Shown piece by piece: positions 16,701 to 29,960 of a stretch of 64,000 nucleotides of DNA. How positions within the stretch are numbered: the stretch's first letter is position 1; each line of letters starts with the position of its first letter. This DNA is from Candidatus Chloroploca mongolica (lineage in GTDB: Bacteria; Chloroflexota; Chloroflexia; Chloroflexales; Chloroflexaceae): the NCBI RefSeq assembly GCF_004762035.2, contig NZ_SIJK02000015.1, positions 1 through 64,000 on the forward strand, given 5' to 3'. A model generated the notes under the pieces. The model had not been told where the DNA came from and made no database searches. It saw only the letters and a program-made list of their open reading frames with translations. Position numbers and translations under genes: made by a program.

Positions 16701-19700
16701 GACACCAGCGTCATTTACGCTGACTCCTACGCAGACGATGACGGTCACGGTGCTGGTCAATACGCCTGGTACGCCCCCCGCCGGCCCGTTGGTCTTCGGG
16801 CTGCGGGCCTTGGTGACGGGTGACGAGACGCGGGTGGCTCAGACCGCCAATACGATCATCGTGCCGGTGGTCCGTGGCTTTGCCTTTACCCCTGTGACGC
16901 TGCAGCGTGCGACCACTGATCCAGGCGCAACGGTGCGGTTTAGCTACGTTTTGACCAATACCGGCAATGCCGCTGATAGTTTTGCCGTTGCGACATCGGT
17001 ACCACCTGTTGGCTTGACCCTTACAGGCGTAACTGCGACGCCGAGTCTGAGCAATCTGGCGGCTGGCATCACTTCTACGGTGCAGGTGAGCTATGCGGTG
17101 GCGGATGATGCGCTCGCCGGGACTTATCCGTTGACGGTGACGGCGCGTGCGACGGGTGGAGTTGATCCACCTGCACCGGCACTGCGTTCGCTTGAGGTGG
17201 TTGTCCGTGGGAGCGGGGCGGTGACGCTGACCCCGCCACTGGCCGAGCCGCCCGCCGTCGATCTGGCCGGGGCGACGCAGCCGGTCGCAGTGACGGCGGT
17301 CTTTACCGCGACCAATTCGGGCAATGCGTCTGCGCCGATTCTGCCCGGGCCGGTGACCGGTCTGCCGTCTGGCTGGACGGGGAATGTGACGGGCAATGCC
17401 TGTCCGGTTGGCCTCCCCGGTCTTGCGCCAGCGGCCTCATGCCTCTTTACCGTGACAGTCACCGTGCCGCCTACCGCTGATGCCGGGGTGAACGATCTCA
17501 CGGTCGCGGCCACGGCGGATAATAGCGCCCAGACGAATCCGGCTGTGCCTGATGTCACCGATGAAGCGACGCTCCGTGTGCAGGTTGCGGTGGTGCGTGG
17601 GGTGGCCTTGCGTCCTGCGAACCTCGCGCAGGCGGCGTTGCCTGGTGACACGGTGACCTTTGCGCATACGCTCGAAAATACCGGCAATGCGCCCGATAGT
17701 TATACGCTCACCGTGAGCCAGTCGGCGATATTGCCCGCCTGGACGCTCAGTCTGACGCCGACAGCGGTGAGTGACCTGGCGCGTGATGGCACACGGACGA
17801 TCACGACAACGACGGTGGTGCCGGCGAATCTGCTGGCGGGAGATGTCCAGCAGTTGACGGTGCGGGCCGCCGGGGTGAACGATGGGCCGACCGCAGAAGT
17901 GACCGCAGTCGTGACGATCGGGTCACTGGTTGCGGGCGAGTTGCTTGACAGCCCGCGTGGCAGCGTTGATCCTGGTGAGACAACGACCTATACGGTGACA
18001 GTGCGCAATACGGGCACCGAACGTACCAGGTATACGCTGGTCTTGAGCGATACGCTGTCGGGATGGCGTTCTGCAGTTGGCCCGGCGACGCCTGCTTTGC
18101 TACCGGGGATGACCGGCACGCTGGTGATCAGTGTGACCGCACCCGCCGATGCGCCTCCTGACGCGACGAATACAACGCGGCTGCGCCTGGTCGAGGATGG
18201 CGCACCCACGCTCATCCTGGATGAACGGGAAGCAACTACGCGCATTGGGCCGGTGGTACGCGGCTTCCTCTTTACCCCCGCAACGCTCCAGCGTGTGACC
18301 ACCGACCCCGGGACAACCGTACGCTTCAGTTACCGGTTGACCAATACCGGCAATGTGGCCGATAGCTTCACCATCGTTCCAGCGGTGCCGCCTGCCGGAT
18401 TCAGTGTGGCAGGGGTGTCGGCAACGCCGAGTCTGAATGATCTTCCCGTTGGCGCTAGCTCGACCGTGCATGTGAGCTACACGGTTGGGGTTGGCGTGCT
18501 GGAGGGAACGTATCCGTTGACGATTACCGCTCGCGTGAACGGGGGCGATGATCCTCCCCCGGATGCCCTGCGTGCCGCTGAGATTGTGGTGCGTGGGCGT
18601 GGTGCGGTGGCGCTTGCGCCCGAGGTGGCCGAGCCGCCTGCGGTTGATCTGGCCGGGGCGACGCAACCAGTCGCGCTCACGGTGGTCTTTACGGCAACCA
18701 ATACGGGTAACGCACCTGCGCCGATCCTGCCGGGGCCGGTGACTGGTCTGCCGGTTGGCTGGACAGGTGAGGTGACAGACAATGCGTGTCCCGCTGCATT
18801 GCCTGGCCTGGCCCCGGCGGCGACGTGTCGCTTTACCGTTACGGTCTCTATCCCCGTCGATGCTGATGGTGGTGTGACCGATCTGACGGTGGCGGCGACG
18901 GCAGATAATAGCGCACGCACCAATCCGCTTGTACCGGATGTTACTGATCAAGCCACGTTGCGGGTTCGTGTAGCGATCGAACGAGGCGTCGCGTTGCGGC
19001 CTGATGGGCTTGCCCAGTTAGCCGGCCCCGGTCAGACTGCGACGTTTGTCCATACGCTCGAAAATACGGGGAACGCGCCCGATAGCTTTAACCTGAGTGT
19101 GCTCCAGCCCCAGGCTGAACCAGTCTGGGCAGTGGAGGTGCGCCCTGAGGTGGTCAGCGATCTGGCGCGTGATGGAACCCGTACCATTACCACGACAGCG
19201 GTAGTTCCTGCGACGGCGCTGCCGGGCGAAAGTGTGCGCCTGACGATCCGTGCGTCCGGTGTCAATGCTGGCCCGGTGGCCGAGGTCACGGCGCTCGTGA
19301 CGGTCACGGAACAGGTCGTGCGTGACTTTGTCTTTACCCCCGAGCCACTCCAGCGCCGTACCACGGTTCCTGGCACGACGGTGCGTTTCACGTATGTCTT
19401 GACCAATACCGGCAATGGGCTCGATAGCTTTGCCCTTGATAGCTCGGTGCCGCCTGACGGAGTGGCGCTGCTCGATGTGACGGCGACGCCGAGTCTGGTG
19501 AATCTGGCGGCGGGAGTCAGTTCCGAAGTTCAGATCAGGTATGCGGTTGATTCGGCGGCGCTGGCGGGAACCTACCCGTTGACGATCACGGCGCGGTCGG
19601 TCGGTGGCCTTGAGCCGCCTGCGCCAGCCGTGCGTTCAATTGAACTTGGCGTGGTCGCCGGAGGATCGGTCGTGTTGAGTCCTGATCTGGTCGCACCGCC

Positions 19701-21405
19701 CGAGGTTGACCTTGCCGGGGCAACGCAACCCGTCGCGGTGACGGCACTCTTTACGGCGACCAATACGGGCAATGCGTCTGCGCCAATCTTGCCCGGGCCG
19801 GTGACTGGTCTGCCCTCTGGCTGGACAGGTGACGTGACGGGCAATGGCTGTCCGTCTGGTCTTCCCGGTCTTGCGCCAGCGGCGTCGTGTCAATTTACCG
19901 TGACGGTTACGGTGCCGCCTGCGGCTGATGCGGGGGTGACGGATCTGATCGTCGCGGCCACCGCAGATAATAGTGCCCAGACGAATCCGACGGTGCCTGA
20001 TGTCACTGATGAAGCGACGCTCCGTCTGCAGGTTGCGGTGGTGCGCGGCGTTGCTTTGCGCCCTGATGATCTGGCGCAACAGGCCTTGCCTGGCGAGACG
20101 GTGACGTTTGTGCATACACTCGAAAACACCGGCAACGTGCCCGATAGCTATACGCTCAGCGTGAGCCAGACGGCGACCCTGCCAGCGTGGACAGTCAATC
20201 TGACGCCAACCGAGGTGAGTGATCTGCCGCGTGCTGGCACCCAGACGCTCACGACAACGACGGTGGTGCCGGCGAATCTGTTAGCGGGTGAGGAACAGCG
20301 CTTGACCGTGCGCACGGTTGGCGTCAATGAGGGTCCGGTCGCGGAAGTGACCGCTCTAGTGACGATCGGGTCGCTGGTTGCGGGCGAATTGCTCGACAGC
20401 CCCCGTGGCAACGTCAATGTCGGTGGGACAAGCACCACCTATGCCATCACTGTGCGCAATACGGGGACGGAACGCACCAGCTATACGCTGGTCTTGAGCG
20501 ATACGCTGCCGGGATGGCGTTCTGAGGTGGGTGCGGCGACGCCTGCCTTGCTTCCGGGGATGACCGGCACGGTAACCATCAACGTCACCGCGCCGTCCGA
20601 AGCTGTGCGCGGCGATACGAATACAACCGTCTTGCGGCTCGTTGAAGAGGGTGTGCCGGCCGTCATCCTTGATGAGGGTGAAGCCGTCACGCGGGTCGGG
20701 CCGCTCTTTAGTCTCATCCTGACCCCTGATAGAGCGCTTGCTGGTGCGCCAGGCACGCTGGTCGAGAGCAGGCATACCCTGACCAATCTTGGCTCCACCG
20801 AAGGGACGTTCCGCCTGCGCGTGGCCGACTCGCTCGGCTGGTTTACCAACGTCACCCCTGACCTTGTAACCCTTGGTCCTGATGAAGAGATCGAGATCCT
20901 TGCGTTGGTACGTATCCCTGAAGGGGTGCGGGCTGACACGCCGAATGTTGCGATCGTGACCGCGCAACAGCTTGACACACCGGTGCTGGTCGAAGCGCAG
21001 GCTCGGATCGACCTGCGGGTGACCCTGGTTGCCGGTCTCAAACTGGCCTCGTCGCAGGTGCGGCGGGTGCAACCAGGGCAAGGCCTGATCAGTATGAGCG
21101 ATCTTGCGGTGACCAATCTTGGTAGTGGCAGCGATACCATCACCTTGACGGTTGTTGGTGAGAGTGATGGCTGGGAGGTTGATCTGAGTCGCAGCAGTGT
21201 ATGGGTTGATCATACGAGTACCGCCCGCGTTTCGATGCGCGTCGTGGTACCTGAACGCATTGCGCCCGGTACCATCAAAACCCTGCGCATCGAAGGGCGC
21301 TCGACCAATGACGAAACTGTTACTGATGCGATTGAGTTATCGCTGATCTACTTTACGGGTGGGCAGACGCCTTCACGCGTCTTCCTGCCGCTGGTGCGCC
21401 GATGA
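13759..21405 (+). CDS. giant secreted CSLREA / beta-helix protein with repeated Ig-like modules
   Basis: 2548 residues. The GTG start follows AAAGGAGGGG 12 bp after the previous stop, so it is an operon partner and paralogue. It has an N-terminal signal ('LALVLVLSLLFTLLAPL'), a 'CSLREAIRLAN' motif near residue 55, and a beta-helix at about 90-720. From about residue 830 it is a string of Ig-like NEW3/CARDB-type modules. Three large repeats start with a 'VVRxFxFTP' block at about 16870, 18250 and 19312; the middle one lacks the final 'SLVAGELLDSP' module. The C-terminus is 'SRVFLPLVRR', like that of its neighbour. Probably an extended surface fibre or adhesin. The stop overlaps aroQ by 4 bp. 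Confidence 0.85.
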   Translation: MASLNRRLALVLVLSLLFTLLAPLPVPWSIVAAQASIVVSNLNDLDNGGANDCGSDGCSLREAIRLANSRNGPNSITFTVTGTLTLESALPILTDDETTLDATSADPAATQPNVTLNALGIAPGSHGLHLQSNNNVVRGLAIIRAPAGMSADVAGAGIFLDGASGNQLYQNWLGLAADGTAQGNQGYGLLIGNGASNNIIGADRDDQRNVLTSNVMGGIRINTASNTALNQNNLIEGNYIGTTPAGDAAGNNGTRTDSAGISLGAGAVKTTIRNNVIGGFPQSFGIFMPGLGQVSTNPLIARDNVIVGNAIGVTRGGIPVPNKFGLQLGSNAYGPRNTTIGGLDLLDRNIIAGNTSYGIRFLDTGFVWGDATILGNLIGLTADGTPLPNGTTSDSSSGAIFIGRLGGGTAQFPPGRVTVGAKNVIAASRSFGVHVRSSNHVIKGNYIGTSLSGDRSQTGQTAFGGASVFLEHGTGVTIGGTTTADRNVIAYGGSQIGGARAAILINPVALGTNRCNGTCTTSGHVIEGNYLGVRPDGVTPLNAASPSGTEGMRIWRTTGVTVRNNLIGGVGQGLALGEPSEAAGAVTNLLIEGNLIGAPATGELPLDANLAAAPRNFSVGIRLYNGSNNVIRQNLVAYNGSGQTFDVVPGILIGSLFDGNLASNNDLLGNRLVRNGGVDAPGIQIRGATGIRISQTTTEFHQGPGIALLDGGNAGRTPPTLNPQLQQNPEPEPPSVTGSTDPACGPGCTVEIFTTSRGTEADEGPIYLASGLTLADGTFNIPLPVCQRYLNATVTDATGNTSPFSTRIDLGVDNPCAPIAFDLVADPAGTERAVAPGEQTTYLHTLNNTSPITLTFSVALTSTQRWANGPTLVTVPPNASTEIPVTVTVPATQAEAATETTSVRALVGTARSSNVVVNTTTVRLPGPAFPALTGPLTTTLAGPTTIFTHTVSNVGDVVGDFTVASTGFVGDAPPGWSVASVTPASFTLTPTQTMTVTVLVNTPGTPPAGPLVFGLRALVTGDETRVAQTANTIIVPVVRGFAFTPVTLQRATTDPGATVRFSYVLTNTGNAADSFAVATSVPPVGLTLTGVTATPSLSNLAAGITSTVQVSYAVADDALAGTYPLTVTARATGGVDPPAPALRSLEVVVRGSGAVTLTPPLAEPPAVDLAGATQPVAVTAVFTATNSGNASAPILPGPVTGLPSGWTGNVTGNACPVGLPGLAPAASCLFTVTVTVPPTADAGVNDLTVAATADNSAQTNPAVPDVTDEATLRVQVAVVRGVALRPANLAQAALPGDTVTFAHTLENTGNAPDSYTLTVSQSAILPAWTLSLTPTAVSDLARDGTRTITTTTVVPANLLAGDVQQLTVRAAGVNDGPTAEVTAVVTIGSLVAGELLDSPRGSVDPGETTTYTVTVRNTGTERTRYTLVLSDTLSGWRSAVGPATPALLPGMTGTLVISVTAPADAPPDATNTTRLRLVEDGAPTLILDEREATTRIGPVVRGFLFTPATLQRVTTDPGTTVRFSYRLTNTGNVADSFTIVPAVPPAGFSVAGVSATPSLNDLPVGASSTVHVSYTVGVGVLEGTYPLTITARVNGGDDPPPDALRAAEIVVRGRGAVALAPEVAEPPAVDLAGATQPVALTVVFTATNTGNAPAPILPGPVTGLPVGWTGEVTDNACPAALPGLAPAATCRFTVTVSIPVDADGGVTDLTVAATADNSARTNPLVPDVTDQATLRVRVAIERGVALRPDGLAQLAGPGQTATFVHTLENTGNAPDSFNLSVLQPQAEPVWAVEVRPEVVSDLARDGTRTITTTAVVPATALPGESVRLTIRASGVNAGPVAEVTALVTVTEQVVRDFVFTPEPLQRRTTVPGTTVRFTYVLTNTGNGLDSFALDSSVPPDGVALLDVTATPSLVNLAAGVSSEVQIRYAVDSAALAGTYPLTITARSVGGLEPPAPAVRSIELGVVAGGSVVLSPDLVAPPEVDLAGATQPVAVTALFTATNTGNASAPILPGPVTGLPSGWTGDVTGNGCPSGLPGLAPAASCQFTVTVTVPPAADAGVTDLIVAATADNSAQTNPTVPDVTDEATLRLQVAVVRGVALRPDDLAQQALPGETVTFVHTLENTGNVPDSYTLSVSQTATLPAWTVNLTPTEVSDLPRAGTQTLTTTTVVPANLLAGEEQRLTVRTVGVNEGPVAEVTALVTIGSLVAGELLDSPRGNVNVGGTSTTYAITVRNTGTERTSYTLVLSDTLPGWRSEVGAATPALLPGMTGTVTINVTAPSEAVRGDTNTTVLRLVEEGVPAVILDEGEAVTRVGPLFSLILTPDRALAGAPGTLVESRHTLTNLGSTEGTFRLRVADSLGWFTNVTPDLVTLGPDEEIEILALVRIPEGVRADTPNVAIVTAQQLDTPVLVEAQARIDLRVTLVAGLKLASSQVRRVQPGQGLISMSDLAVTNLGSGSDTITLTVVGESDGWEVDLSRSSVWVDHTSTARVSMRVVVPERIAPGTIKTLRIEGRSTNDETVTDAIELSLIYFTGGQTPSRVFLPLVRR

Positions 21406-21866
21406 AGACGCTTGCCGTCATCCACGGACCGAATCTCAATATGCTCGGGCGGCGCGAACCCGCGATCTACGGGCATACCACCCTGGCTGACATCAATGCC
21501 GCCCTGACCGCACGCGCCGAGGCGGCGGGGATGCGCCTGATCGCTTTCCAGTCCAATCACGAAGGTGCCCTGGTCGACTTCTTGCAAGGCGAGGGGTGGG
21601 AGGCCGACGGGGTGATTATCAACCCTGGTGCGTTGACGCACTACGGCCTATCGCTACGCGATGCATTGGCCGCGCTGAGCGCCCCGATCATCGAGGTGCA
21701 TATCTCGAATGTATACCGCCGCGAACCATTTCGCCACACCTCGGTCGTTGCGCCAGTTGCCACCGGACAAATCACGGGCCTTGGCTGGCAGGGGTATATG
21801 CTCGCGCTCGAATGGCTCATTCCGACGCTGCTCCCCCCCTCCCAGGCCACACAACTCAGCACATAA
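21402..21866 (+). CDS. aroQ: type II 3-dehydroquinate dehydratase
   Basis: 154 residues, the normal length for this dodecameric shikimate-pathway enzyme, which dehydrates 3-dehydroquinate to 3-dehydroshikimate. The N-terminal 'IHGPNLNMLGRREPAIYG' includes the catalytic tyrosine and arginine region, and 'VHISNVYRREPFRHTSVV' carries the family histidine and substrate-binding residues. Its ATG overlaps the stop of the giant beta-helix gene (ATGA), so translation is probably coupled to that unrelated protein, which is odd for a housekeeping enzyme. Confidence 0.93.
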   Translation: MKTLAVIHGPNLNMLGRREPAIYGHTTLADINAALTARAEAAGMRLIAFQSNHEGALVDFLQGEGWEADGVIINPGALTHYGLSLRDALAALSAPIIEVHISNVYRREPFRHTSVVAPVATGQITGLGWQGYMLALEWLIPTLLPPSQATQLST

Positions 21867-22141
21867 GGCGGTTTTTTTGACGCAAAGGCGCAAAGGCGCA
21901 AAGGTTGGAGCGTAGGAGCGCTCCCCCTTCGCGGCTTCGCGGCTTCGCGTGAGCTTCTAGGAGCGCTCCCCCTTCGCGGCTTCGCGGCTTCGCGTGAGCT
22001 TCTTTGCTTGGTATTGGAGTCGCATGCGCCGCGTAGCACCGGTGAACGCGGCGTGTTCGCGGCGTAGCATAGACAAGACCGATTTCGGTGGTACAGTTAC
22101 TTCGTAGAACGGGTATAGTGGGTATAGGTGGCAAAAGTGTT
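21867..22141. repeat. intergenic repeat region at the left edge of the cassette array
   Basis: A dispersed repeat at 21873-21904 (TTTTTTGACGCAAAG then GGCGCAAAG units) is followed by two perfect tandem copies of a 45-bp unit at 21913-21957 and 21958-22002, rich in CTTCGCGG. No gene was seen. The start ATAAGGCGGT before the T-run resembles the sequence at 9104-9130. Confidence 0.6.
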
Positions 22142-22175
22142 GCCTAGTTCATATTAGGCATTACAAGGAGACTGC

Positions 22176-22655
22176 GTGACAGTTCTACGACCAATCACAG
22201 AAGCCGAGTATGTAGTCTGGCTTGAGATAGTTATCCCGGCCTATGCCAAAGACAAGGTTTCCTCTGGCCAATGGCCAAAGGATTCAGCGCTCGACTCAGC
22301 TCGAAAGGACTATGCCGAGTTGCTGCCAAATGGAAAGGACACCGACAAAAACCACATCTTCACCGTTCTAAGCCCAGAAGGGTTTCCGGTCGGAACGTTG
22401 TGGTTTGTCGAGCAGGAAAGAGCGAACAGCCGCATCGCTTATGTCTACGACATCTATGTAAAGCCTGAGCACAGAAGGCAGGGTCACGCTTCTCGGGCCT
22501 TTCAGGCTTTGGAAGTGGAAGTTGCAAGACTTCGCCTATCGGGAGTCGCATTGCACGTCTTCGGCCATAATCTTGCAGCCCAAGCGCTCTACACCAAGTT
22601 AGGCTATACCGCCACGAATATCAACATGTTCAAACTGGTGTTCAGTGATGCCTAA
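22176..22655 (+). CDS. GNAT-family N-acetyltransferase
   Basis: 159 residues. The acetyl-CoA pyrophosphate-binding motif A is visible as 'YDIYVKPEHRRQGHASRAF' (R/Q-x-x-G-x-A), and motif B as 'LHVFGHNLAAQALYTKLGY', with the usual N-x-x-A-x-x-x-Y-x-x-x-G-F/Y pattern. The GTG start follows AAGGAG at a 6-base spacing. The substrate is unknown; cassette acetyltransferases often act on small molecules or antibiotics, but nothing here shows that. The gene starts ~17 bp after a TTAGGC core-like sequence and its stop is inside the following attC-like site, as in integron cassettes. Confidence 0.85.
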   Translation: MTVLRPITEAEYVVWLEIVIPAYAKDKVSSGQWPKDSALDSARKDYAELLPNGKDTDKNHIFTVLSPEGFPVGTLWFVEQERANSRIAYVYDIYVKPEHRRQGHASRAFQALEVEVARLRLSGVALHVFGHNLAAQALYTKLGYTATNINMFKLVFSDA

Positions 22656-22693
22656 CACCTGCCTCCGCGGGCAACGTAGCTCGAACGTTAGCC
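22650..22693 (+). other. degenerate attC-like site
   Basis: GCCTAAC (22650-22656, a perfect RYYYAAC) and GTTAGCC (22687-22693, close to GTTRRRY) bracket 30 bp containing a small TGCC/GGCA stem. At 44 bp it is shorter than typical attC sites. It overlaps the stop codon of the acetyltransferase. Confidence 0.45.
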
Positions 22694-22785
22694 AGCCCTT
22701 TGCAATCTCGGCATGTCGCGCTACAATGGTAAGTAGAATCCGTTTGGCAAGGTTATGTTATTGATTGGCGCATCAGGAGAAAGAA

Positions 22786-22815
22786 ATGAAGCCTTTTGCT
22801 ACGTGGCGCACCTGA
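22786..22815 (+). other. 9-codon mini-ORF with a good ribosome binding site, probable gene remnant
   Basis: ATG AAG ... TGA encodes MKPFATWRT. AGGAG lies 6 bases before the ATG. It ends 8 bp before a perfect GTTAGGC core-like heptamer (22824-22830). The likeliest reading is the start of a former cassette gene whose body was lost. Confidence 0.35.
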
Positions 22816-22882
22816 AGCCCCCCGTTAGGCGGGCGTCAAGTGACTGTTTGAGGAACGATGCAATGATTCGGAAGGAACGACA

Positions 22883-23140
22883 ATGCCAACGTTGTCAACG
22901 TTCTATGGCATTAAGATCACGATGAACTACAACGACCATCTGCCACCTCACTTTCATGCAGAATATCAAGACTTCGAGGCGACCATTGAGATCGCCAGTG
23001 GACTGGTTACGGGCAGGATGCCCAGACGCGCCTTGAATCTGATCTGGTCATGGTTGGACGAACATCGCGACGAAGTTATGGAAAACTGGGAACGGGCGCA
23101 AGCGCGACAAGCACTCAAACCCGTGGAACCGCTCCGTTGA
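22883..23140 (+). CDS. DUF4160 family protein
   Basis: 85 residues. 'NYNDHLPPHFHAEYQDFEA' with the conserved H-x-P-P-H-F-H region is diagnostic of DUF4160, small proteins generally paired with DUF2442 and suspected to be toxin-antitoxin-like. A GAAGGAACGACA precedes the ATG. DUF2442 follows after 9 bp, so the two form one operon inside the cassette. A second, decayed copy of the 3' end of this gene is at about 25439-25495. Confidence 0.85.
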   Translation: MPTLSTFYGIKITMNYNDHLPPHFHAEYQDFEATIEIASGLVTGRMPRRALNLIWSWLDEHRDEVMENWERAQARQALKPVEPLR

Positions 23141-23149
23141 AGAGGTGAA

Positions 23150-23401
23150 ATGTTTATCCATGTAACAAATGTGCAATACCTGGACGGCTATCGGCTCCAA
23201 CTGCACTTCAACAACGGCGTTGAGGGTGTTGTCGATCTGGAACCAGAACTCTACGGAGAGGTCTTCGAACCTCTGCGCGATCAGCAGGTGTTTCGGCAAG
23301 TAGCTTTGACCAGTCGCACGATTGAATGGCCCAACGGCGCGGACTTTGCCCCCGAATTCCTGCTGTCATTGGTGCAGAAGACCGAGCATGTCGCCGCATG
23401 A
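23150..23401 (+). CDS. DUF2442 family protein
   Basis: 83 residues. 'YRLQLHFNNGVEGVVDLEPEL' followed by 'IEWPNGADFAPEFLL' is the DUF2442 pattern. It is the standard partner of the upstream DUF4160 gene and AGAGG lies a few bases before the ATG. The pair is thought to work together, possibly as a toxin-antitoxin module; this is family context, not shown by the sequence. A copy with a 160-bp internal deletion is present at 25505-25595. Confidence 0.85.
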   Translation: MFIHVTNVQYLDGYRLQLHFNNGVEGVVDLEPELYGEVFEPLRDQQVFRQVALTSRTIEWPNGADFAPEFLLSLVQKTEHVAA

Positions 23402-23460
23402 GCGGCGACGCGCAATCCGCGATCCTGGGCTACAATTTGTACATATCGCGGGAGGACGCT

Positions 23461-23697
23461 ATGACGACGAAAGAAGTTGAGATCCACGAAGCACAGCAGC
23501 ACCTTGCGGAATTGGTTGCCCAGGTCGTGACCGGAGAGGAAATTATCTTACTGGATGGTCAGACACCCCGCGCGCGCCTGGTGCCCATCACGCCGCACGC
23601 CGCACGGCGAGTCCCAGGGTTACATGCCGGTAGTATGACGATGAGCCCCGATTTTGATCAGCCTTTGCCCGATGAGTTCTGGACCGGAACACCGTGA
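23461..23697 (+). CDS. Phd/YefM-type antitoxin
   Basis: 78 residues. 'VEIHEAQQHLAELVAQVVTG' and 'IILLDGQTPRARLVPI' match the N-terminal DNA-binding part of Phd/YefM antitoxins; the last ~25 residues would wrap the toxin. GGGAGGA precedes the ATG. The stop overlaps the start of the PIN toxin by 4 bp, giving coupled translation. By family knowledge the antitoxin both neutralises the toxin and represses the operon. Confidence 0.87.
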   Translation: MTTKEVEIHEAQQHLAELVAQVVTGEEIILLDGQTPRARLVPITPHAARRVPGLHAGSMTMSPDFDQPLPDEFWTGTP

Positions 23698-24080
23698 AGC
23701 TGTTGCTCGATATGCATACGTTTATCTGGTGGGACAGCGATCCTGCCAAATTATCCGCCACCGCGCTGGCGTTATGCAGTGATCCCGCCAATGATCTCAT
23801 CCTCAGTGTCACAAGTCTATGGGAAATGTACATCAAGCACCAGCTTGGGAAATTGAGCCTGCGGCTGCCGTTGGTCGATATTGTCGCGCATCAACAAGCC
23901 ACGAATGGCGTGAACGTCTTGCCAATTCTGCCTACGCATGTGTTCGCATTGGATGGTCTGCCGACAGTTCATAAAGACCCATTTGATCGCTTATTGGTTG
24001 CGCAAGCGAACAGTGAAGGCGCGACCTTGGTCAGCGCCGATCCCATTTTCAAATCCTATCCGGTTCGTATGGCTTGGTAA
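23694..24080 (+). CDS. vapC: PIN-domain ribonuclease toxin (VapC family)
   Basis: 128 residues. The acidic PIN residues are in place: 'LLLDMHTFIWW' (first Asp), 'SVTSLWEMYIK' (Glu), 'KDPFDRLLVAQA' (Asp) and 'LVSADPIF' (last Asp). This is the Sll0205-like VapC group that pairs with Phd-type antitoxins and cleaves RNA with Mg2+. The GTG start overlaps the antitoxin stop. It appears intact and is the only complete toxin gene of the array. Confidence 0.88.
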   Translation: MKLLLDMHTFIWWDSDPAKLSATALALCSDPANDLILSVTSLWEMYIKHQLGKLSLRLPLVDIVAHQQATNGVNVLPILPTHVFALDGLPTVHKDPFDRLLVAQANSEGATLVSADPIFKSYPVRMAW

Positions 24081-24083
24081 CGC

Positions 24084-24534
24084 CTATGTGAGTTGACCAT
24101 GAGCATTGCCATCGGCCACTCCACGATTCGCGCTTGGGCGTTGGATGATGCTGAGGCACTGGCCAGATATGCCAACAACCCCAACGTTGCGGCGAACCTT
24201 CGCGATGGATTTCCGCATCCGTATCCAAAGTCTGATGCCGAAGCCTTCTTGCGCAACGCAATCGCTCGATCGCCACGTACCATCTTCGCCATTGCGCGTG
24301 ACGAGGAGGCCATCGGGAGCATTGGCCTGATGATCGGCAGCGATGTTCACCGATTCACGGGCGAGTGCTCGATCAATTCATGTATGCCAAGACCAATGTA
24401 CAATAACCGAGCATCGTTGGATCATCCTCGGCACATCGGACGTGGGTCGGCTCTTGTTTGTTGCCCATACGGATCGTGGCGATCACCTCCGCATCATTAG
24501 CGCACGGACGGTGAACCCTAACGAACAAGGATGA
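24084..24534 (+). pseudogene. chimeric remnant: GNAT N-terminus joined to BrnT C-terminus (copy 1)
   Basis: The ATG at 24099 opens 88 residues of a RimJ/RimL-like acetyltransferase ('IRAWALDDAEALARYANNPN' to about 'DVHRFTGE', ending near 24365). The sequence then switches, in another frame, to a BrnT-like C-terminal half ('RWIILGTSDVGRLLFVAHT', then 'LRIISARTV'), whose stop lies in the attC at 24516. Neither half is a complete gene. Bases 24084-24468 recur almost unchanged at 27783-28167, so the fusion is older than the duplication. Confidence 0.75.
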
Positions 24535-24575
24535 TGTGGCGGCTTCGCGCCACATGAATCCGTAGTTCGTTGGGC
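24516..24575 (+). other. attC recombination site
   Basis: 60 bp running from CCCTAAC to GTTGGGC (perfect GTTRRRY, 24569-24575). CCTAACGAAC pairs with GTTCGTTGGG over 10 bp (one G-T), followed inward by GGAT/ATCC, then ATGTGGCG/CGCCACAT around the tip. The interrupted stem with unpaired bases mainly on one side is the attC architecture. Confidence 0.85.
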
Positions 24576-24582
24576 CGCAAAA

Positions 24583-25290
24583 GTGGAGGACATGAGGCAC
24601 GCAATCAACATCGCGTTCGACTTTCGTAGCGATACGCCTGTGGGAAAGGATCCAGATGTCGCGAGCCCTACGCTGCGGCGCTACCATAAGCTTCTGTGGA
24701 GCAAACCGTTGCCTGGAGGAGTTCCTTTTGAACTCAGCGACTCAAGGACGGATTGCTATTTGTATCACCGATCAGAATTGGGCGAGTTTTTCCTGGCCAG
24801 CGATACGGTGATCCCGTCCTTTCGGAAAGTTCCGCACATAAAGGCGCTTATACCGCAAAAAGAAATTGAGGCCTTCAACACAATCGGATACACGATTGGC
24901 GGAATGATGGTGTTCCCAGGAAACAAGATCGACGGGAAGATGACGATGAATGGTGCTCGCGGGTTCCACCCGCTGATCAGGGATCGGTTTGATCTTACCT
25001 TGGAATGCATCCGCAGACACTATGCCGGCGAAGCGAGTCCATTGAGCGAACCGTTGCGTCGGTATTCCGACTTCTTCATGCTCTTTGCTGACTTCCGTGG
25101 CTACGTCGAGTTCTTTCTGCTACAGGATCTTGTCATCGGAAATGAGGTAAAAATCTCAGGGCCTTACGACAACTTCAGGAGTTCGCCGGTTCCAAAGGAT
25201 GCCTATGAATATAGGGCGTATCGTGACGACGCTGTTGCCTTCATCAATGCGCGCAATCAGCGCATTCAGTCGGCAACGACAGCGGCCTAA
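24583..25290 (+). CDS. hypothetical cassette protein (DUF6994-like)
   Basis: 235 residues from the GTG at 24583; the ATG at 24592 (MRHAINIAFDF) is an alternative, both near a GGAGG. Conserved-looking blocks are 'FDFRSDTPVGKDPDVASPTL', 'LRRYHKLLWSKPLP' and 'LGEFFLASDTVIPSF'. I recall this pattern from proteins labelled DUF6994, of unknown function, but cannot verify it. It is soluble, with no signal peptide or metal motif. It begins 8 bp after an attC core site and its stop lies within GCCTAAC (25285-25291), a left attC half, so it is cassette-borne. Confidence 0.7.
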   Translation: MEDMRHAINIAFDFRSDTPVGKDPDVASPTLRRYHKLLWSKPLPGGVPFELSDSRTDCYLYHRSELGEFFLASDTVIPSFRKVPHIKALIPQKEIEAFNTIGYTIGGMMVFPGNKIDGKMTMNGARGFHPLIRDRFDLTLECIRRHYAGEASPLSEPLRRYSDFFMLFADFRGYVEFFLLQDLVIGNEVKISGPYDNFRSSPVPKDAYEYRAYRDDAVAFINARNQRIQSATTAA

Positions 25291-25600
25291 CAACCGATGG
25301 CGTTCATTCAGGAGGTGTTCTCGTGAGCAGTCCCCAGCCCTTGCCGCTAGCCGAATTAAATACGCGGGCGATCCGGGTACTCATTCAAGAAATGGGTGTG
25401 GTAAACACGGCTTGTTTCATTCATCAATTGCGATCGCCAATTGGGAACGGGCGCAAGTGCGACAAGCACTCAAACCCGTGGAACCGTTCCGTTGAAGAGG
25501 TGAAATGTTTATCCATTGAATGGCCCAACGGCGCGGACTTTGCCCCCGCATTCCTGTTGTCATTGGTGCAGAAGACCGAGCATGTCGCCGCATGAGCAGC
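25291..25600 (+). pseudogene. chimeric ORF joining an unknown N-terminus to DUF4160/DUF2442 remnants
   Basis: A GTG at 25323 with AGGAGG upstream opens a 90-codon frame ending at 25595. Its first ~36 residues ('LNTRAIRVLIQEMGVVNTAC') belong to an unidentified small family. The middle is the 3' end of DUF4160 read out of frame (in-frame remnant 25439-25495, 'NWERAQVRQALKPVEPFR'). The last 27 residues are the true C-terminus of DUF2442. In the DUF2442 remnant, ATG at 25505 runs straight into TGA after four codons because of a 160-bp deletion relative to 23161-23320, joined at a shared AT. Confidence 0.7.
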
Positions 25601-26101
25601 GACGAGCAATCCGACTGATGCGGTCTGCAACATCTCAACGTGAGCGCAACGTGGAATGCAGCGGGTCTCTGGGCTCAGCCTTGATCAGGACGGCGCACTG
25701 GTTTTAGCGTAGGCCGCCGCTCAACACCCCGTCCAGTTGACCGGCGCATGGGCCAGGTTTCGCATCGAGTGTTCGCGATCACCGGCGGCTGACAGCTAAC
25801 CGTTCGGCGGCGGCAGCCCGTAACGCCATGCCGGCGGTTTATCCAAATCGTGGCTAGGCGGCAACCGTGCGACGTCGCACCATACAGGGCCAATTGAGGT
25901 GGCATCATCGCGGTATCGCACGGCTAAGGCTGATCGAGGCCGCAGAATCGCCGTCTGCTTCACGTTAGGAGTGGTACTTTACCTTGATCGATTTCAAATC
26001 GATTTTTGAAGTATCATCCCAATGTGAGTACACTTGTTTATCTCGCGTCGCCGCCATCCGTTCTGGCACCCTTGCTTGCTGCATCTCACCAGTTGGTGTG
26101 C
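25601..26101. other. non-coding stretch with the first copy of a 120-bp repeat
   Basis: No gene could be supported. Bases 25850-25969 form a ~120-bp repeat whose other copy is 26751-26870. It ends at GTTAGGA (25964-25970), a near-consensus attC core heptamer. The rest is GC-rich sequence without recognisable protein similarity. Confidence 0.6.
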
Positions 26102-26130
26102 TTGCCTTTCTCGGTGTCCCCGGCTATACT
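26102..26130 (+). promoter_or_regulatory. promoter of the brnT-brnA remnant
   Basis: TTGCCT (26102-26107), a 17-base spacer and TATACT (26125-26130). The brnT ATG is at 26137, about where transcription would begin, so the mRNA may be leaderless. Confidence 0.6.
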
Positions 26131-26136
26131 GCGTCT

Positions 26137-26298
26137 ATGAAGTTTGCATGGGATGAGCAGAAGAACCAAAGCAACATGCGCAAGCACGGCTTTAGTTTCG
26201 CCGATGCTTGGGAAATCTTTGCAGCACCCATGCTCATCTCGCTGCGAAAGGCCTTGAGCCATGAGCGACAAACCTATGAACAAGCCTTCGGAAACTGA
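26137..26298 (+). pseudogene. brnT: BrnT toxin with an internal deletion
   Basis: 53 residues against about 90 for intact BrnT. The N-terminus 'MKFAWDEQKNQSNMRKHGFS' and 'FADAWEIFAAPM' are typical, and the end 'RKALSHERQTYEQAF' is the normal BrnT C-terminus. The central beta-sheet with the 'ERWIxIG...RxLxVVY' block is missing; the join 'MLISLRKA' keeps the frame, probably through homology between an ATCTCGCTGCG and the usual 'RIISLRK' codons. BrnT is an mRNA-cleaving toxin by family knowledge; this form is probably inactive. It overlaps brnA by 38 bp. Confidence 0.78.
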
Positions 26299-26536
26299 TT
26301 GGGCGCGCATCGACGCGATGACCGATGCGGAGATCGACACATCGGACATTCCGCCGCTCACGGAAGCGTTTTTCAAACGGGCCAACGTACGGATGCCACG
26401 GCATCTGATTGCGGTGACCGTGCAGGTTGACCCTGAGGTGTTGGCCTGGTTCAAAGCGCAGGGTGAGGGCTACGAGCAACGTATGCATGCCGCCCTCCGT
26501 ATCTATGCGGAAGCCCATAAAACTGCCCAACCCTAA
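26261..26536 (+). CDS. brnA: BrnA antitoxin
   Basis: 91 residues, full length. 'DWARIDAMTDAEIDTSDIPP' followed by 'VTVQVDPEVLAWFKAQGEGY' and a 'RMHAALRIYAEAH' helix is the BrnA pattern, with a C-terminal ribbon-helix-helix DNA-binding domain. BrnA neutralises BrnT and represses the operon. The ATG at 26261 lies within the brnT frame; ATG 26276 is an alternative. The antitoxin is intact while its toxin is deleted internally. Confidence 0.85.
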   Translation: MSDKPMNKPSETDWARIDAMTDAEIDTSDIPPLTEAFFKRANVRMPRHLIAVTVQVDPEVLAWFKAQGEGYEQRMHAALRIYAEAHKTAQP

Positions 26537-26893
26537 CCGTCCGTGCCGCCCAACCCTGATCGGTATGTGGCCGAGGGACATTGCGCATGATTTATGAAAA
26601 GTACCAGCGCAACCACACGATCAAATCGCCAGAAAGCTGAGGGTTGGCATGGAAAGGCATACCTCATCCCAGAGTCGAGTTTGTAGCGAGCCGCATGGGG
26701 TGGCTTAGCGGTGGATAGACGGCACAAGCACCATCGTACCGACCAGGAGCGTGGATAGGCGGCAACCGTGCGGCGTCGCACCATACAGGGCCGATTGAGG
26801 TGGCATCATCGCGATATCGCACGGCTAAGGCTGATCGAGGCCGCAGAATCGCCGTCTACTTCATGTTGGGCCGCACGAAGGGAAGGGAAACTT
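26537..26893. other. non-coding stretch with the second copy of the 120-bp repeat
   Basis: No gene is seen. GCCCAAC (perfect RYYYAAC) occurs at 26525-26531, overlapping the brnA end, and again at about 26548. The repeat copy at 26751-26870 is about 95% identical to 25850-25969 and ends at GTTGGGC (26865-26871), a perfect GTTRRRY heptamer. I could not fold a normal-sized attC from these halves. Confidence 0.55.
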
Positions 26894-27667
26894 GTGACTA
26901 ATGACCAGACAAAGCACCTAGCAGCGTCACTCGATGCAGAGGAAGCCTTGCTTCCGTTCGTTCCGCACCTGTTGCAGGACCTTTGGTCGCTCGGGTTCTC
27001 GCCAGAGGCTCCTCTGCGGCTTCTGGAAAGGAATCTCCATGAGGCTCCGCAGCATGTGGTGGATCTCGGGTGCGGCAAAGGAGCACTGCTGATCCACCTC
27101 GCGAAACGCTTCGGCTGGCACGGACGTGGAGTCGATATCGTACCGGAATTCATTGCGGAGGCTCGCAGGTACGCCAATGATTGGGGGGTCGCTGACGCGC
27201 TCGACTTCGAGGTCAAGGACATGGGGGAAGAGTTAGCCAAGGGCGGAGAACGGAACCTCGTCCTCTTCGGCTTCGACTCCGAGGCGCTTGGCGAACTTCA
27301 AGAGGCACTTGCTCGCATCGCAGCGTGTGTCGCACTGTCGGGGCACCTTCTGGTCGATCTTGCCTGGGCGCGGTCAGGACACTCGGCCGATTTACCTTCC
27401 GAAGCGCAAGTGCTCGACAGCGCTCATGCGGTGGGACTCCGGTTGGTTGATCGGGAAATGCTGGATCCTGCTTGGGTGGCAACCGAAGGGTCGCGGCATG
27501 TTGAGCTCATCCGTCGCCGAGCTAAGGAACTTGCGATAAGATACCCGGAACACTCAGCGGCATTCGAGGCGTACGTGATGGAGCAGGAAGCGGAGAACCA
27601 GCTGCTCACCAAAGAGGCACACTGCGGGTATCTGCTCTTCGCTCGGAGCGGGCAAAAGGCGAGGTGA
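26894..27667 (+). CDS. class I SAM-dependent methyltransferase (cassette gene)
   Basis: 257 residues. The SAM loop is 'HVVDLGCGKGALLIHLAKRF' (about residues 54-73), followed by 'GRGVDIVPEFIAEARRYA' and 'VKDMGEEL'. The frame runs upstream to 26768, but that portion is the 120-bp repeat, so the GTG at 26894 (VTNDQTKHLA), with GAAGGGAAA before it, is the likely start, 22 bp after the core site at 26865. The next attC begins 9 bp after the stop. The substrate is unknown; nothing resembles an rRNA-resistance methylase specifically. Confidence 0.82.
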   Translation: MTNDQTKHLAASLDAEEALLPFVPHLLQDLWSLGFSPEAPLRLLERNLHEAPQHVVDLGCGKGALLIHLAKRFGWHGRGVDIVPEFIAEARRYANDWGVADALDFEVKDMGEELAKGGERNLVLFGFDSEALGELQEALARIAACVALSGHLLVDLAWARSGHSADLPSEAQVLDSAHAVGLRLVDREMLDPAWVATEGSRHVELIRRRAKELAIRYPEHSAAFEAYVMEQEAENQLLTKEAHCGYLLFARSGQKAR

Positions 27668-27675
27668 GGTGAGCG

Positions 27676-27735
27676 GCCCAACAACAGCATGCAGCCGACG
27701 GCGCTTCGCGCCGCAGCTGACGCTGAGCGTTAGAA
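27676..27735 (+). other. attC recombination site
   Basis: 60 bp from GCCCAAC (perfect RYYYAAC, 27676-27682) to GTTAGAA (27729-27735, one base off GTTRRRY). CAGC/GCTG and further GC-rich arms lead to a GGCG-CTT-CGCC tip. It lies 9 bp after the methyltransferase stop, the usual cassette arrangement. Confidence 0.85.
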
Positions 27736-27782
27736 GCAGCCACTATCACGCCCATTCCCCACAAACGAGGTACCGCTATCTG

Positions 27783-28335
27783 CTATGCGAGTTGACCATG
27801 AGCATTGCCATCGGCCACTCCACGATTCGCGCTTGGGCGTTGGATGATGCTGAGGCACTGGCCAGATATGCCAACAACCCCAACGTTGCGGCGAACCTTC
27901 GCGATGGATTTCCGCATCCGTATCCAAAGTCTGATGCCGAAGCCTTCTTGCGCAACGCAATCGCTCGATCGCCACGTACCATCTTCGCCATTGCGCGTGA
28001 CGAGGAGGCCATCGGGAGCATTGGCCTGATGATCGGCAGCGATGTTCACCGATTCACGGGCGAGTGCTCGATCAATTCATGTACGCCAAGACCAATGTAC
28101 AGTAACCGAGGATCGTTGGATCATCCTTGGCATATCGGACGTGGGTCGGCTCTTGTGTGTTGCCCATGCTGACAGTTTGCTCACAGGTGAGATTGTTGAA
28201 CGCCAAAAAGACGCTGTTACTGGTGAGTGGAAGTATCTGGTCAAAGGCGACACGGTTGCAGGCGATGAAATGACGACCGTTGCAAAAATCAGCCCTACGG
28301 GCAAGTTGGTGATCATCACGGTCTATCGGTTATAA
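27783..28335 (+). pseudogene. chimeric remnant: GNAT' + BrnT' + DUF4258-like C-terminus (copy 2)
   Basis: Bases 27783-28167 repeat 24084-24468 with only a few substitutions and no indels. The ATG at 27798 opens the same truncated acetyltransferase. In the other frame (28042-28335) the BrnT-like piece ('DRWIILGISDVGRLLCVAHA') stops at the shared boundary and continues in frame into 'LLTGEIVERQKDAVTGEWKY' and 'AKISPTGKLVIITVYRL', which resembles the C-terminal part of DUF4258-type cassette proteins. Three gene pieces are therefore joined. The DUF4258 assignment is from memory. Confidence 0.7.
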
Positions 28336-28476: not shown

Positions 28477-28725
28477 TCACGCCTCGGTGGGCGGAAGCGA
28501 CGTGGCGATGTCGTAGACAAGCACCTGCACGTCGAGGCCCTCGCTGGTGAGTAGGTCGATCGTGTCCTCGTGGGTCGCTGCTTTGATCGCCGTTTCGACG
28601 CCTGCCGGAGCATAGACACGGATGCTTGCTTCTTCCTCGGAAGCACGGGCAATCCGCAGCACCGCCTCGGGGCAAATCGTCGTGATGCGCTGACTCAGTT
28701 CGGTGATGGCGTCTTCCAGGGTCAT
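28477..28725 (-). CDS. small hypothetical protein at the end of the sulfur cluster
   Basis: 82 residues from the ATG at 28725 (MTLEDAITELSQR), with GAGAGGA upstream; the open frame reaches 28788 without a better start. It is not recognised. The pattern of acidic helix plus 'ASIRVYAPAGVETAIKAATH' and 'LDVQVLVYDI' suggests a small alpha/beta protein without a metal motif. It follows the MoeB-like gene by 74 bp on the same strand and may be the last gene of that operon. Confidence 0.55.
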   Translation of the reverse strand: MTLEDAITELSQRITTICPEAVLRIARASEEEASIRVYAPAGVETAIKAATHEDTIDLLTSEGLDVQVLVYDIATSLPPTEA

Positions 28726-28799
28726 GCGAAGATCCTCTCGTGGGCAATGCAGCGGGGGCAGTCCGGTGTGTACGAAACTGCCCCGCAAGAAGGTGCTAC

Positions 28800-29960
28800 C
28801 TAATACTTCGCCATGGTCGGATCAACCTCGTCGCTCCAGCGGAGCACTCCGCCAACCATGTTTTTGACCTTGCGGAATCCGGCGGCTTTGAGCATCTCGA
28901 CGGCCTGCCCACTGCGAGCCCCACTGCGGCAGTAGACAACGATCTCGACGGAACTGTCGAGCTTATTGATCTGTTCAGCAAGTTGATCGACCGGAATAAG
29001 CAGGTCGGTTCCTTCGATGCTGGCGATCTCAACTTCATACGAATTGCGTACATCAAGCAGGAACGGTCGCTCGGGCGTCTCAAGCAATGCCGCCAATTCG
29101 ACCGGGGTAATCTCATACTGGCTACTCAAGGTCTGTACCTCAGGGACAATGCCGCAAAATTGTTCATAGTCAATCAACTCGGTGACGGTTGGGTGGTCGC
29201 CACAGACGGGACAATTGACATTGCGGCGTAGCTTCAACTCACGAAAACGCATCTCAAGGGCATCATAGAGCAGCAAACGTCCGATCAGCGGCTCACCAAT
29301 GCCAGTGAGCAATTTGATTGCCTCAGTTGCTTGCAGTGTGCCAATGACCCCAGGCAAGACACCGAGCACGCCTCCTTCCGCACATGACGGTACCAGGCCA
29401 GGAGGCGGTGGTTCGGGATAGAGGCAGCGATAGCACGGCCCGCCATCTTTTGGTGAAAAGACGGTGACCTGCCCTTCAAAACGAAAGATGCTGCCATAGA
29501 CATTCGGCTTGCCGAGCATCACGGCGGCATCGTTGGTCAGATAACGAGTTGGAAAATTGTCGGTACCGTCAATAATTATATCGTAAGGCCGCATCAGGTC
29601 AAGTGCGTTCGCCGAGGTGATTGGGGTCTCGTAGGTCGTCACTTCAACCAGCGGATTCAGATCGTGGAGGCGCCGTCGGGCCGATTCGGTCTTGGCAAGA
29701 CCAACCGTCGAGGTACCGTGTACAATCTGGCGTTGCAGGTTGCTCTCGTCAACCACGTCGAAGTCAACCAACCCGATATGGCCGACGCCCGCTGCGGCGA
29801 GATAGAGCGCCAGCGGTGAGCCGAGGCCACCGGTACCGATCAGCAAGACACTGCCCTGCTTCAGGCGGCGCTGGCCCCCCATCCCCACTTCGGGCATAAT
29901 CAAATGGCGACTATAACGCCGGATCTCTTCATTCGACAAGTCTGGTGGTGCCATGCTCAC
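28800..29960 (-). CDS. moeB: MoeB/ThiF-family adenylyltransferase with C-terminal rhodanese domain
   Basis: 386 residues. Residues 1-250 are the ThiF/MoeB/E1-like domain with the ATP loop 'LLIGTGGLGSPLALYL' and zinc cysteines in 'CYRCLYPEP' and 'CPVCGDHPT'. Residues ~275-386 are a rhodanese domain with the active-site loop 'VVYCRSGARSGQ'. MoeZ/MoeB-rhodanese fusions adenylate the C-terminal glycine of a ubiquitin-like sulfur carrier and then transfer sulfur to make the thiocarboxylate. The ATG overlaps the end of the carrier gene by 4 bp, so the two are almost certainly functional partners. Confidence 0.92.
   Translation of the reverse strand: MSMAPPDLSNEEIRRYSRHLIMPEVGMGGQRRLKQGSVLLIGTGGLGSPLALYLAAAGVGHIGLVDFDVVDESNLQRQIVHGTSTVGLAKTESARRRLHDLNPLVEVTTYETPITSANALDLMRPYDIIIDGTDNFPTRYLTNDAAVMLGKPNVYGSIFRFEGQVTVFSPKDGGPCYRCLYPEPPPPGLVPSCAEGGVLGVLPGVIGTLQATEAIKLLTGIGEPLIGRLLLYDALEMRFRELKLRRNVNCPVCGDHPTVTELIDYEQFCGIVPEVQTLSSQYEITPVELAALLETPERPFLLDVRNSYEVEIASIEGTDLLIPVDQLAEQINKLDSSVEIVVYCRSGARSGQAVEMLKAAGFRKVKNMVGGVLRWSDEVDPTMAKY

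Follow-up and report, generated by a model that had tools for sequence, protein, structure and literature searches.

Reviews already place the Chloroflexota among the integron-carrying phyla (PMC8618304, PMC9668308). A complete integron is recognised by a functional integrase gene (intI) in cis, an attI site, cassettes ending in attC sites of a single orientation, and IntI recombination at G^TT. A cluster of attC sites lacking an integron-integrase (CALIN) is recognised by at least two nearby attC sites and no intI, and its origin, by intI loss, off-target insertion or rearrangement, is a named open question (PMC8618304). Elements of the IS91 type adjoining attC sites are also known (PMC12772301, PMC9229058). 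Here we examine a cassette array in a 64,000-nucleotide stretch of DNA (the window; contig C65, one of 160 that make up a draft genome of 6.32 Mb) from Candidatus Chloroploca mongolica, a green filamentous bacterium of the order Chloroflexales (Chloroflexota). We consider it highly probable that this is a partly decayed array without IntI, headed by attI, whose cassettes were joined by IntI supplied from a lost copy in cis or in trans.

Results

On contig C86 of the window genome (to which C13, C72, C74, C138 and C149 below also belong), tandem units of about 40 nt ending TAGGTGGCAAGATTGCCGTCTACTTCATG^TTCGGC lie between intI and the first cassette. A tandem-repeat search gave at least 79% matches between these units. 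A tail of the same type adjoins intI on C149, in the genus comparison genomes Candidatus Chloroploca asiatica B7-9 (G222) and the sister species Candidatus Chloroploca sp. Khr17 (G260), and in genomes G347 and G230. Such iteration is unusual, since most published attI sites are without direct repeats (PMC8191803). A profile was built from six attI tails at integrase loci, window sequence excluded, and points to three attI-like sites in the window, where the units have degenerated and were identified by eye. These sites are given here with the cassettes and the attC next to them.

21990-22159, + strand: attI-like site 1, heading the array; degenerate repeat units of about 40 nt ending ...TAGGTGGCAAAAGTGTTGCCTAGTTCATA^TTAGGC (left end putative)
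22154-22693, + strand: GNAT cassette; gene 22176-22655 (Pfam Acetyltransf_1), shortened relic attC at 22650-22693
25719-25808, + strand: degenerate attC (GCTCAAC...GTTCGGC), found with the attC covariance model described below
25849-25970, + strand: attI-like site 2, copy a of repeat D2; three units ending ...GTCTGCTTCACG^TTAGGA
26138-26536, + strand: truncated brnT and brnA (PF04365, PF14384); the brnT frame is longer in Khr17
26750-26871, + strand: attI-like site 3, copy b of repeat D2, ending ...GTCTACTTCATG^TTGGGC
26866-27735, + strand: complete methyltransferase cassette; gene 26894-27667 (Pfam Methyltransf_25), attC at 27676-27735

Site 1 scores 28.3 bits at 22117-22159 (genome-wide E 8e-6), with a putative crossover between 22153 and 22154; its left flank is like those of attI-like sites on C74 and on Ca. 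C. asiatica contig C51. Site 3 scores 28.1 bits at 26838-26871 (genome-wide E 9.5e-6), with a putative crossover between 26865 and 26866. Sites 2 and 3 each sit in a copy of the 121-bp repeat D2; identity between the copies is 94%. Judged by sequence, sites 1 and 3 would provide the attI of a complete integron. A hand-written attI core pattern was too strict and matched nothing in the window, and a scan of the window at Rfam gathering thresholds also returned no match.

Profile matches at E 0.01 or better number 10 in the window genome, 17 in Khr17 and 6 in Ca. C. asiatica, followed by G347 (6), G198 (5) and G375 (4), some of these matches being adjacent units of one site; 27 of 41 genomes of the family have none at that threshold. 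Within 10 kb of attI-like matches, attC matches lie downstream on the same strand in 15 cases, upstream in two and on the opposite strand in none. Of the orphan attI-like sites tested, about one third are preceded by an N-terminal piece of intI, which lies 134-492 nt upstream and has the strand expected of it. We note that several attI-like sites of Khr17 are clustered on single contigs (C92 at 55945, 94684 and 101602; C136 at 23225, 26226 and 27241).

The attC sites were called with a covariance model built from 26 integrase-adjacent attC sites of other Chloroflexota, with no Chloroploca sequence in the training set; its E-values refer to 125 kb of sequence. The site at 27676-27735 scores 57.5 bits (E 3.9e-11). 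That at 25719-25808 scores 26.2 bits (E 0.001); its Ca. C. asiatica orthologue scores 32.0 bits and its Khr17 orthologue 23.9 bits. The deleted relic at 22650-22693 reaches 18.9 bits (E 0.06). The window set is therefore one strong site, one weak site and relics, all on the + strand, and has the single orientation of a complete integron. The first two sites are 1.9 kb apart with E about 0.001 or better, as in a CALIN. A loose scan for heptamers and complementarity, which used no structural model, yielded about 50 candidates on both strands of the window, most of them beyond the array, and was non-discriminating. That outcome is what would be expected if the att sites had nothing to do with integrons and were hairpins and heptamers that arose by chance in a GC-rich toxin-antitoxin island. 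The calibrated models pick out the array region, and related species have base-exact junctions (below), by which this explanation is refuted.

No intI was detected in the window by tblastn with two related IntI proteins. Elsewhere in the genome, the intI on C86 covers positions 2-254 of the 315 in TIGR02249, so that its recombinase domain is cut short at the C-terminal end; C149, C72 and C138 carry further fragments. The intI of Ca. C. asiatica is truncated as on C86, and that of Khr17 is full length. Across 400 sampled Chloroflexota genomes, TIGR02249 matches at E 1e-60 or better in 45 and above its curated cut-off in 43. In the window genome (L010 1914-2042) and in Ca. C. asiatica (L066 1372-1500), an attC match overlaps or adjoins the point where intI is broken off at its 3′ end, and the integrase remnant is thus flanked by cassettes on either side. 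In an integron of another genome of the order (G150), the attC at L046 9808-9867 looks very like that of aadA resistance cassettes.

For a comparison of flanks, 32 attI-like sites from three species were aligned at the crossover. Mean pairwise identity is 0.70 from −40 to −1 and 1.00 at the two T's, then 0.63 from +3 to +6 and 0.27 from +7 to +60. Left flanks match widely, and a right-flank match running from the crossover is seen in just three site pairs. The four-site sets of G347, G198 and G375 likewise have left matches and no right matches, the G375 set being only indicative as the cut is misplaced in some of its sites.

Orthologous junctions switch at the same point. In the window the start of the GNAT cassette, TTAGGCATTACAAGG, follows attI-like site 1; in Khr17 it follows a relic attC, and the change falls exactly at TTAGGC (switch 1). 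Site 3 is followed by TTGGGCCGC... (methyltransferase cassette) in the window and by TTATGTG... in Khr17 (switch 2); its left flank is 96.6% identical between the two over 640 nt and contains brnA, not intI, in both. Site 2 is followed by TTAGGAG... (brnTA cassette) in the window and Khr17 and by TTGGATCGC... in Ca. C. asiatica (switch 3). A fourth orthologous pair, on C138 and Ca. C. asiatica contig C71, has similar left flanks and different right flanks. An apparent clean absence of 25809-27735 from Khr17 between two R′ boxes was dropped: in a wider comparison, Khr17 proved to carry the brnTA segment at another place in this locus, with a junction that is only approximate.

These patterns might also be read as those of dispersed repeats, copied by duplication or transposition, whose flanks were exchanged by homologous recombination and not by IntI. 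Several non-orthologous copies do have 300-700 nt of left flank in common, intI remnants included, and breaks at the point where likeness ends would be expected of homologous recombination between copies as well. We nevertheless find this unlikely. The right flanks open with TTRRRY-like letters and attC sites then follow downstream on the same strand; the attI unit also adjoins intact intI genes; and the GNAT cassette switches between attI and attC. Because attI and attC share no left sequence, switch 1 cannot, on the sequences compared, stem from homology between attI copies. We infer that IntI made the junctions by cutting at G^TT, because the switches between species are base-exact.

Another possibility is an off-target CALIN, in which a distant IntI inserted cassettes singly at non-att sites and the locus was never a platform. 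The locus has neither intI nor an intI remnant, and in Ca. C. asiatica the GNAT gene is joined directly to the end of aroQ, with no att site and without the 281 bp that hold attI-like site 1; both fit such an origin. It leaves unexplained, however, three attI-like sites that are kin to integrase-adjacent attI of the same genus, and we regard it as quite improbable.

Several points weigh against an attI-headed array built by IntI. All three Chloroploca genomes are drafts, with contigs that break at integron repeats. The attC calls rest on our covariance model and not on the attC model of IntegronFinder. The attI profile covers the tail and box, so likeness at those positions is partly selected. 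Site 2 is weak alone (15.8 bits at 25937-25969, genome-wide E 0.07). The Khr17 attC end before the GNAT cassette, ...CGCCGCTGAAGCCCGGC, is degenerate (7.7 bits), with one base gone at the cut. Switches 2 and 3 could stem from homologous recombination between attI copies, because the sequence shared by the copies stops at the crossover base. Finally, a search upstream of the three attI-like sites in the window revealed no intI remnant, so loss in cis is only a possibility at this locus.

The array lies in about 6 kb of + strand cargo between aroQ (21402-21866, Pfam DHquinase_II) and minus-strand genes at 28477-29960. A first-pass annotation, made from the letters alone, had proposed here some 6.2 kb of cargo in an integrase-less array of integron type on a Chloroflexota chromosome, and was right in this. 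The cargo it listed (GNAT, Phd/VapC, BrnTA, DUF4160/DUF2442, methyltransferase) is recovered by Pfam, which assigns GNAT, DUF4160, DUF2442, Phd/PIN, BrnT/BrnA and methyltransferase and adds DUF6994 and DUF4258. It suggested a covariance-model search as a check, and our own model finds significant attC sites at 27676-27735 and 25719-25808. The former is one of the two 60-bp sites it thought convincing; the other, 24516-24575, is better described as an IS91-like end (below). The search for intI that it also suggested found the gene in truncated and fragmentary form elsewhere in the genome and not in cis. It had named none of the three attI-like sites, nor the weak attC at 25719-25808, the relic at 22650-22693 or the intI remnants on other contigs. 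Much of the cargo is damaged: brnT is split, a GNAT fragment occurs in two copies and DUF6994 has just half an attC. The remaining features are as follows.

22803-22830, + strand: 3′ half of a relic attC (...CACCTGAAGCCCCCCGTTAGGC) before DUF4160, read by eye with no separate score; it resembles the 3′ end of an attC in the Khr17 array (L044 1777-1909)
22883-23401, + strand: DUF4160 and DUF2442 gene pair (Pfam PF13711, PF10387)
23461-24080, + strand: Phd/YefM-like antitoxin (PF02604, slightly under cut-off) and PIN-domain toxin (PF01850)
24084-24515, + strand: truncated GNAT (Pfam Acetyltransf_3) fused to a 3′ part of brnT, copy 1 of repeat D1; the GNAT frame is longer in Khr17
24516-24575, + strand: hairpin ending GTTGGGC, its left half derived from brnT; putative right end of an IS91-like element
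24576-25304, + strand: DUF6994 cassette; gene 24583-25290 (PF22507, E 2e-89), attC reduced to a 5′ half (GCCTAACAACCGATGGCG; 6.5 bits) read from the sequence
27736-28335, + strand: second truncated GNAT/brnT copy (D1 duplicate) and DUF4258 gene 28042-28335 (PF14076)

D1 is a recent duplication, 300 bp of the copy at 24084-24515 being identical to 27783-28082. Weak support at most came from the DUF6994 genes of four other Chloroflexota, which were checked for attC neighbours; one of the four loci gave a weak match (23 bits).

The segment at 24516-24575 is a genuine 60-nt hairpin with a terminal GTTGGGC box. Compared with the consensus fold of attC and its L and R boxes, it reaches 12.3 bits in an unfiltered search of 7 kb (E 0.13), near the regional background. 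As an attC it was dropped on this score and on its copies in the genus. Near-identical hairpins are present in all three Chloroploca genomes, with copies at IS91-element ends on C86, on C13 and in Ca. C. asiatica. In most copies a shared sequence comes first, then the hairpin, then GTTGGGC or a similar box, then differing sequence. The shared part, where complete (C86, C13), belongs to a unit of tyrosine recombinase and IS91 transposase. In the window and in Khr17 the left side of the hairpin is the end of brnT. The transposase is found at the C86 and C13 copies; at 24516-24575 there is only the end hairpin. We read this segment as probably the right end, standing alone at a cassette boundary, of an IS91-like element associated with integrons, because the genus-wide copies end tyrosine-recombinase/IS91 units. 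Two such units, L010 4950-7305 (C86) and L107 824-5650 (C13), carry a tyrosine recombinase gene with an IS91 transposase and end in the window-type hairpin. The pair of genes stands directly behind an attC box on C86 and an attI-like box on C13, where it is apparently split by an IS21-type insertion. Behind the C86 hairpin, at the contig end, a minus-strand frame (L010 7336-7731) matches SduA_C, the C-terminal domain of the Shedu defence protein.

The DNA between aroQ and attI-like site 1 (21881-22003) is repetitive, with 8-nt units in tandem (CGCAAAGG, CTTCGCGG) and a 45-nt segment duplicated exactly, also in tandem; related pieces recur beside other attI-like sites of the genome. Upstream of aroQ, gene 13759-21405 encodes a repetitive surface-type protein of 2548 residues with internal duplications.

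Discussion

We propose that platform copies spread or were acquired, that intI then decayed, and that attI and the cassettes stayed. IntI would have cut attI and folded attC at the G^TT of the GTTRRRY box and placed each cassette behind attI. The enzyme may have come from an intI copy once beside the attI sites and now lost, or from an intI elsewhere acting in trans. At site 3 we infer the trans route, the simplest there, because the site lacks an adjoining intI in two species and yet the downstream sequences differ. The attI sites thus probably persisted as integron relics and captured cassettes with IntI in trans. The array is probably inactive now, unless another integrase enters the cell, because the best remaining intI of the genome is without its C-terminal catalytic part.

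In related species, the stray attI sites carry different genes exactly at the cut point; this hints at a single distant enzyme that once acted on many capture sites. A distributed integron, in which one trans-acting integrase serves some 10-17 attI platforms across the chromosome and each platform heads a small array, can be put forward tentatively. Khr17, with one intact intI and 17 attI-like sites, might then be the living example and the window the fossil, though we would not yet favour this. If true, the capture site would be decoupled from the integrase gene, and the textbook picture of an integron with a single platform would need widening.

The three genomes have decayed to differing degrees, and attI still heads arrays in them that lack an integrase, so intI loss and trans action become directly testable. 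The family-specific attI pattern of tandem units of about 40 nt can be used to detect such relics. The first-pass annotation had called integrons little described in this phylum. For integrons as such this does not hold, given the reviews cited and the 43 of 400 genomes; for dispersed orphan attI sites it appears to, as we found no report of them among open-access full texts, and their abundance would appear to be undescribed.

Comparison with known systems

The same annotation saw here either a CALIN or a distal segment from a larger integron, which is not the best description. The array starts at attI and holds two more such sites, so we read it as a probable relic of at least one intI-less integron platform, and neither a distal fragment nor an off-target cluster. 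It shares with a CALIN its attC-ended cassettes and the absence of a nearby intI, but CALINs are defined by attC alone in the literature consulted, and here attI lies at the head and inside. Sedentary chromosomal integrons with an inactivated intI, for example in Xanthomonas (PMC12444791), are alike in that intI decays and cassette arrays persist; they have one conserved platform, whereas the attI-like sites of Chloroploca are many and dispersed. The complete integron of Khr17 (contig C102; intact intI, attI and attC) has the same attI tail and similar attC boxes, and the window locus differs from it in lacking intI and in its worn array. ISCR28 and other IS91-family elements beside attC (PMC12772301; ISShvi3, PMC9229058) likewise have an IS91-type transposase adjoining attC or R′ boxes. 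The Chloroploca unit, in contrast, pairs this transposase with a tyrosine recombinase gene, and the window retains just its end hairpin.

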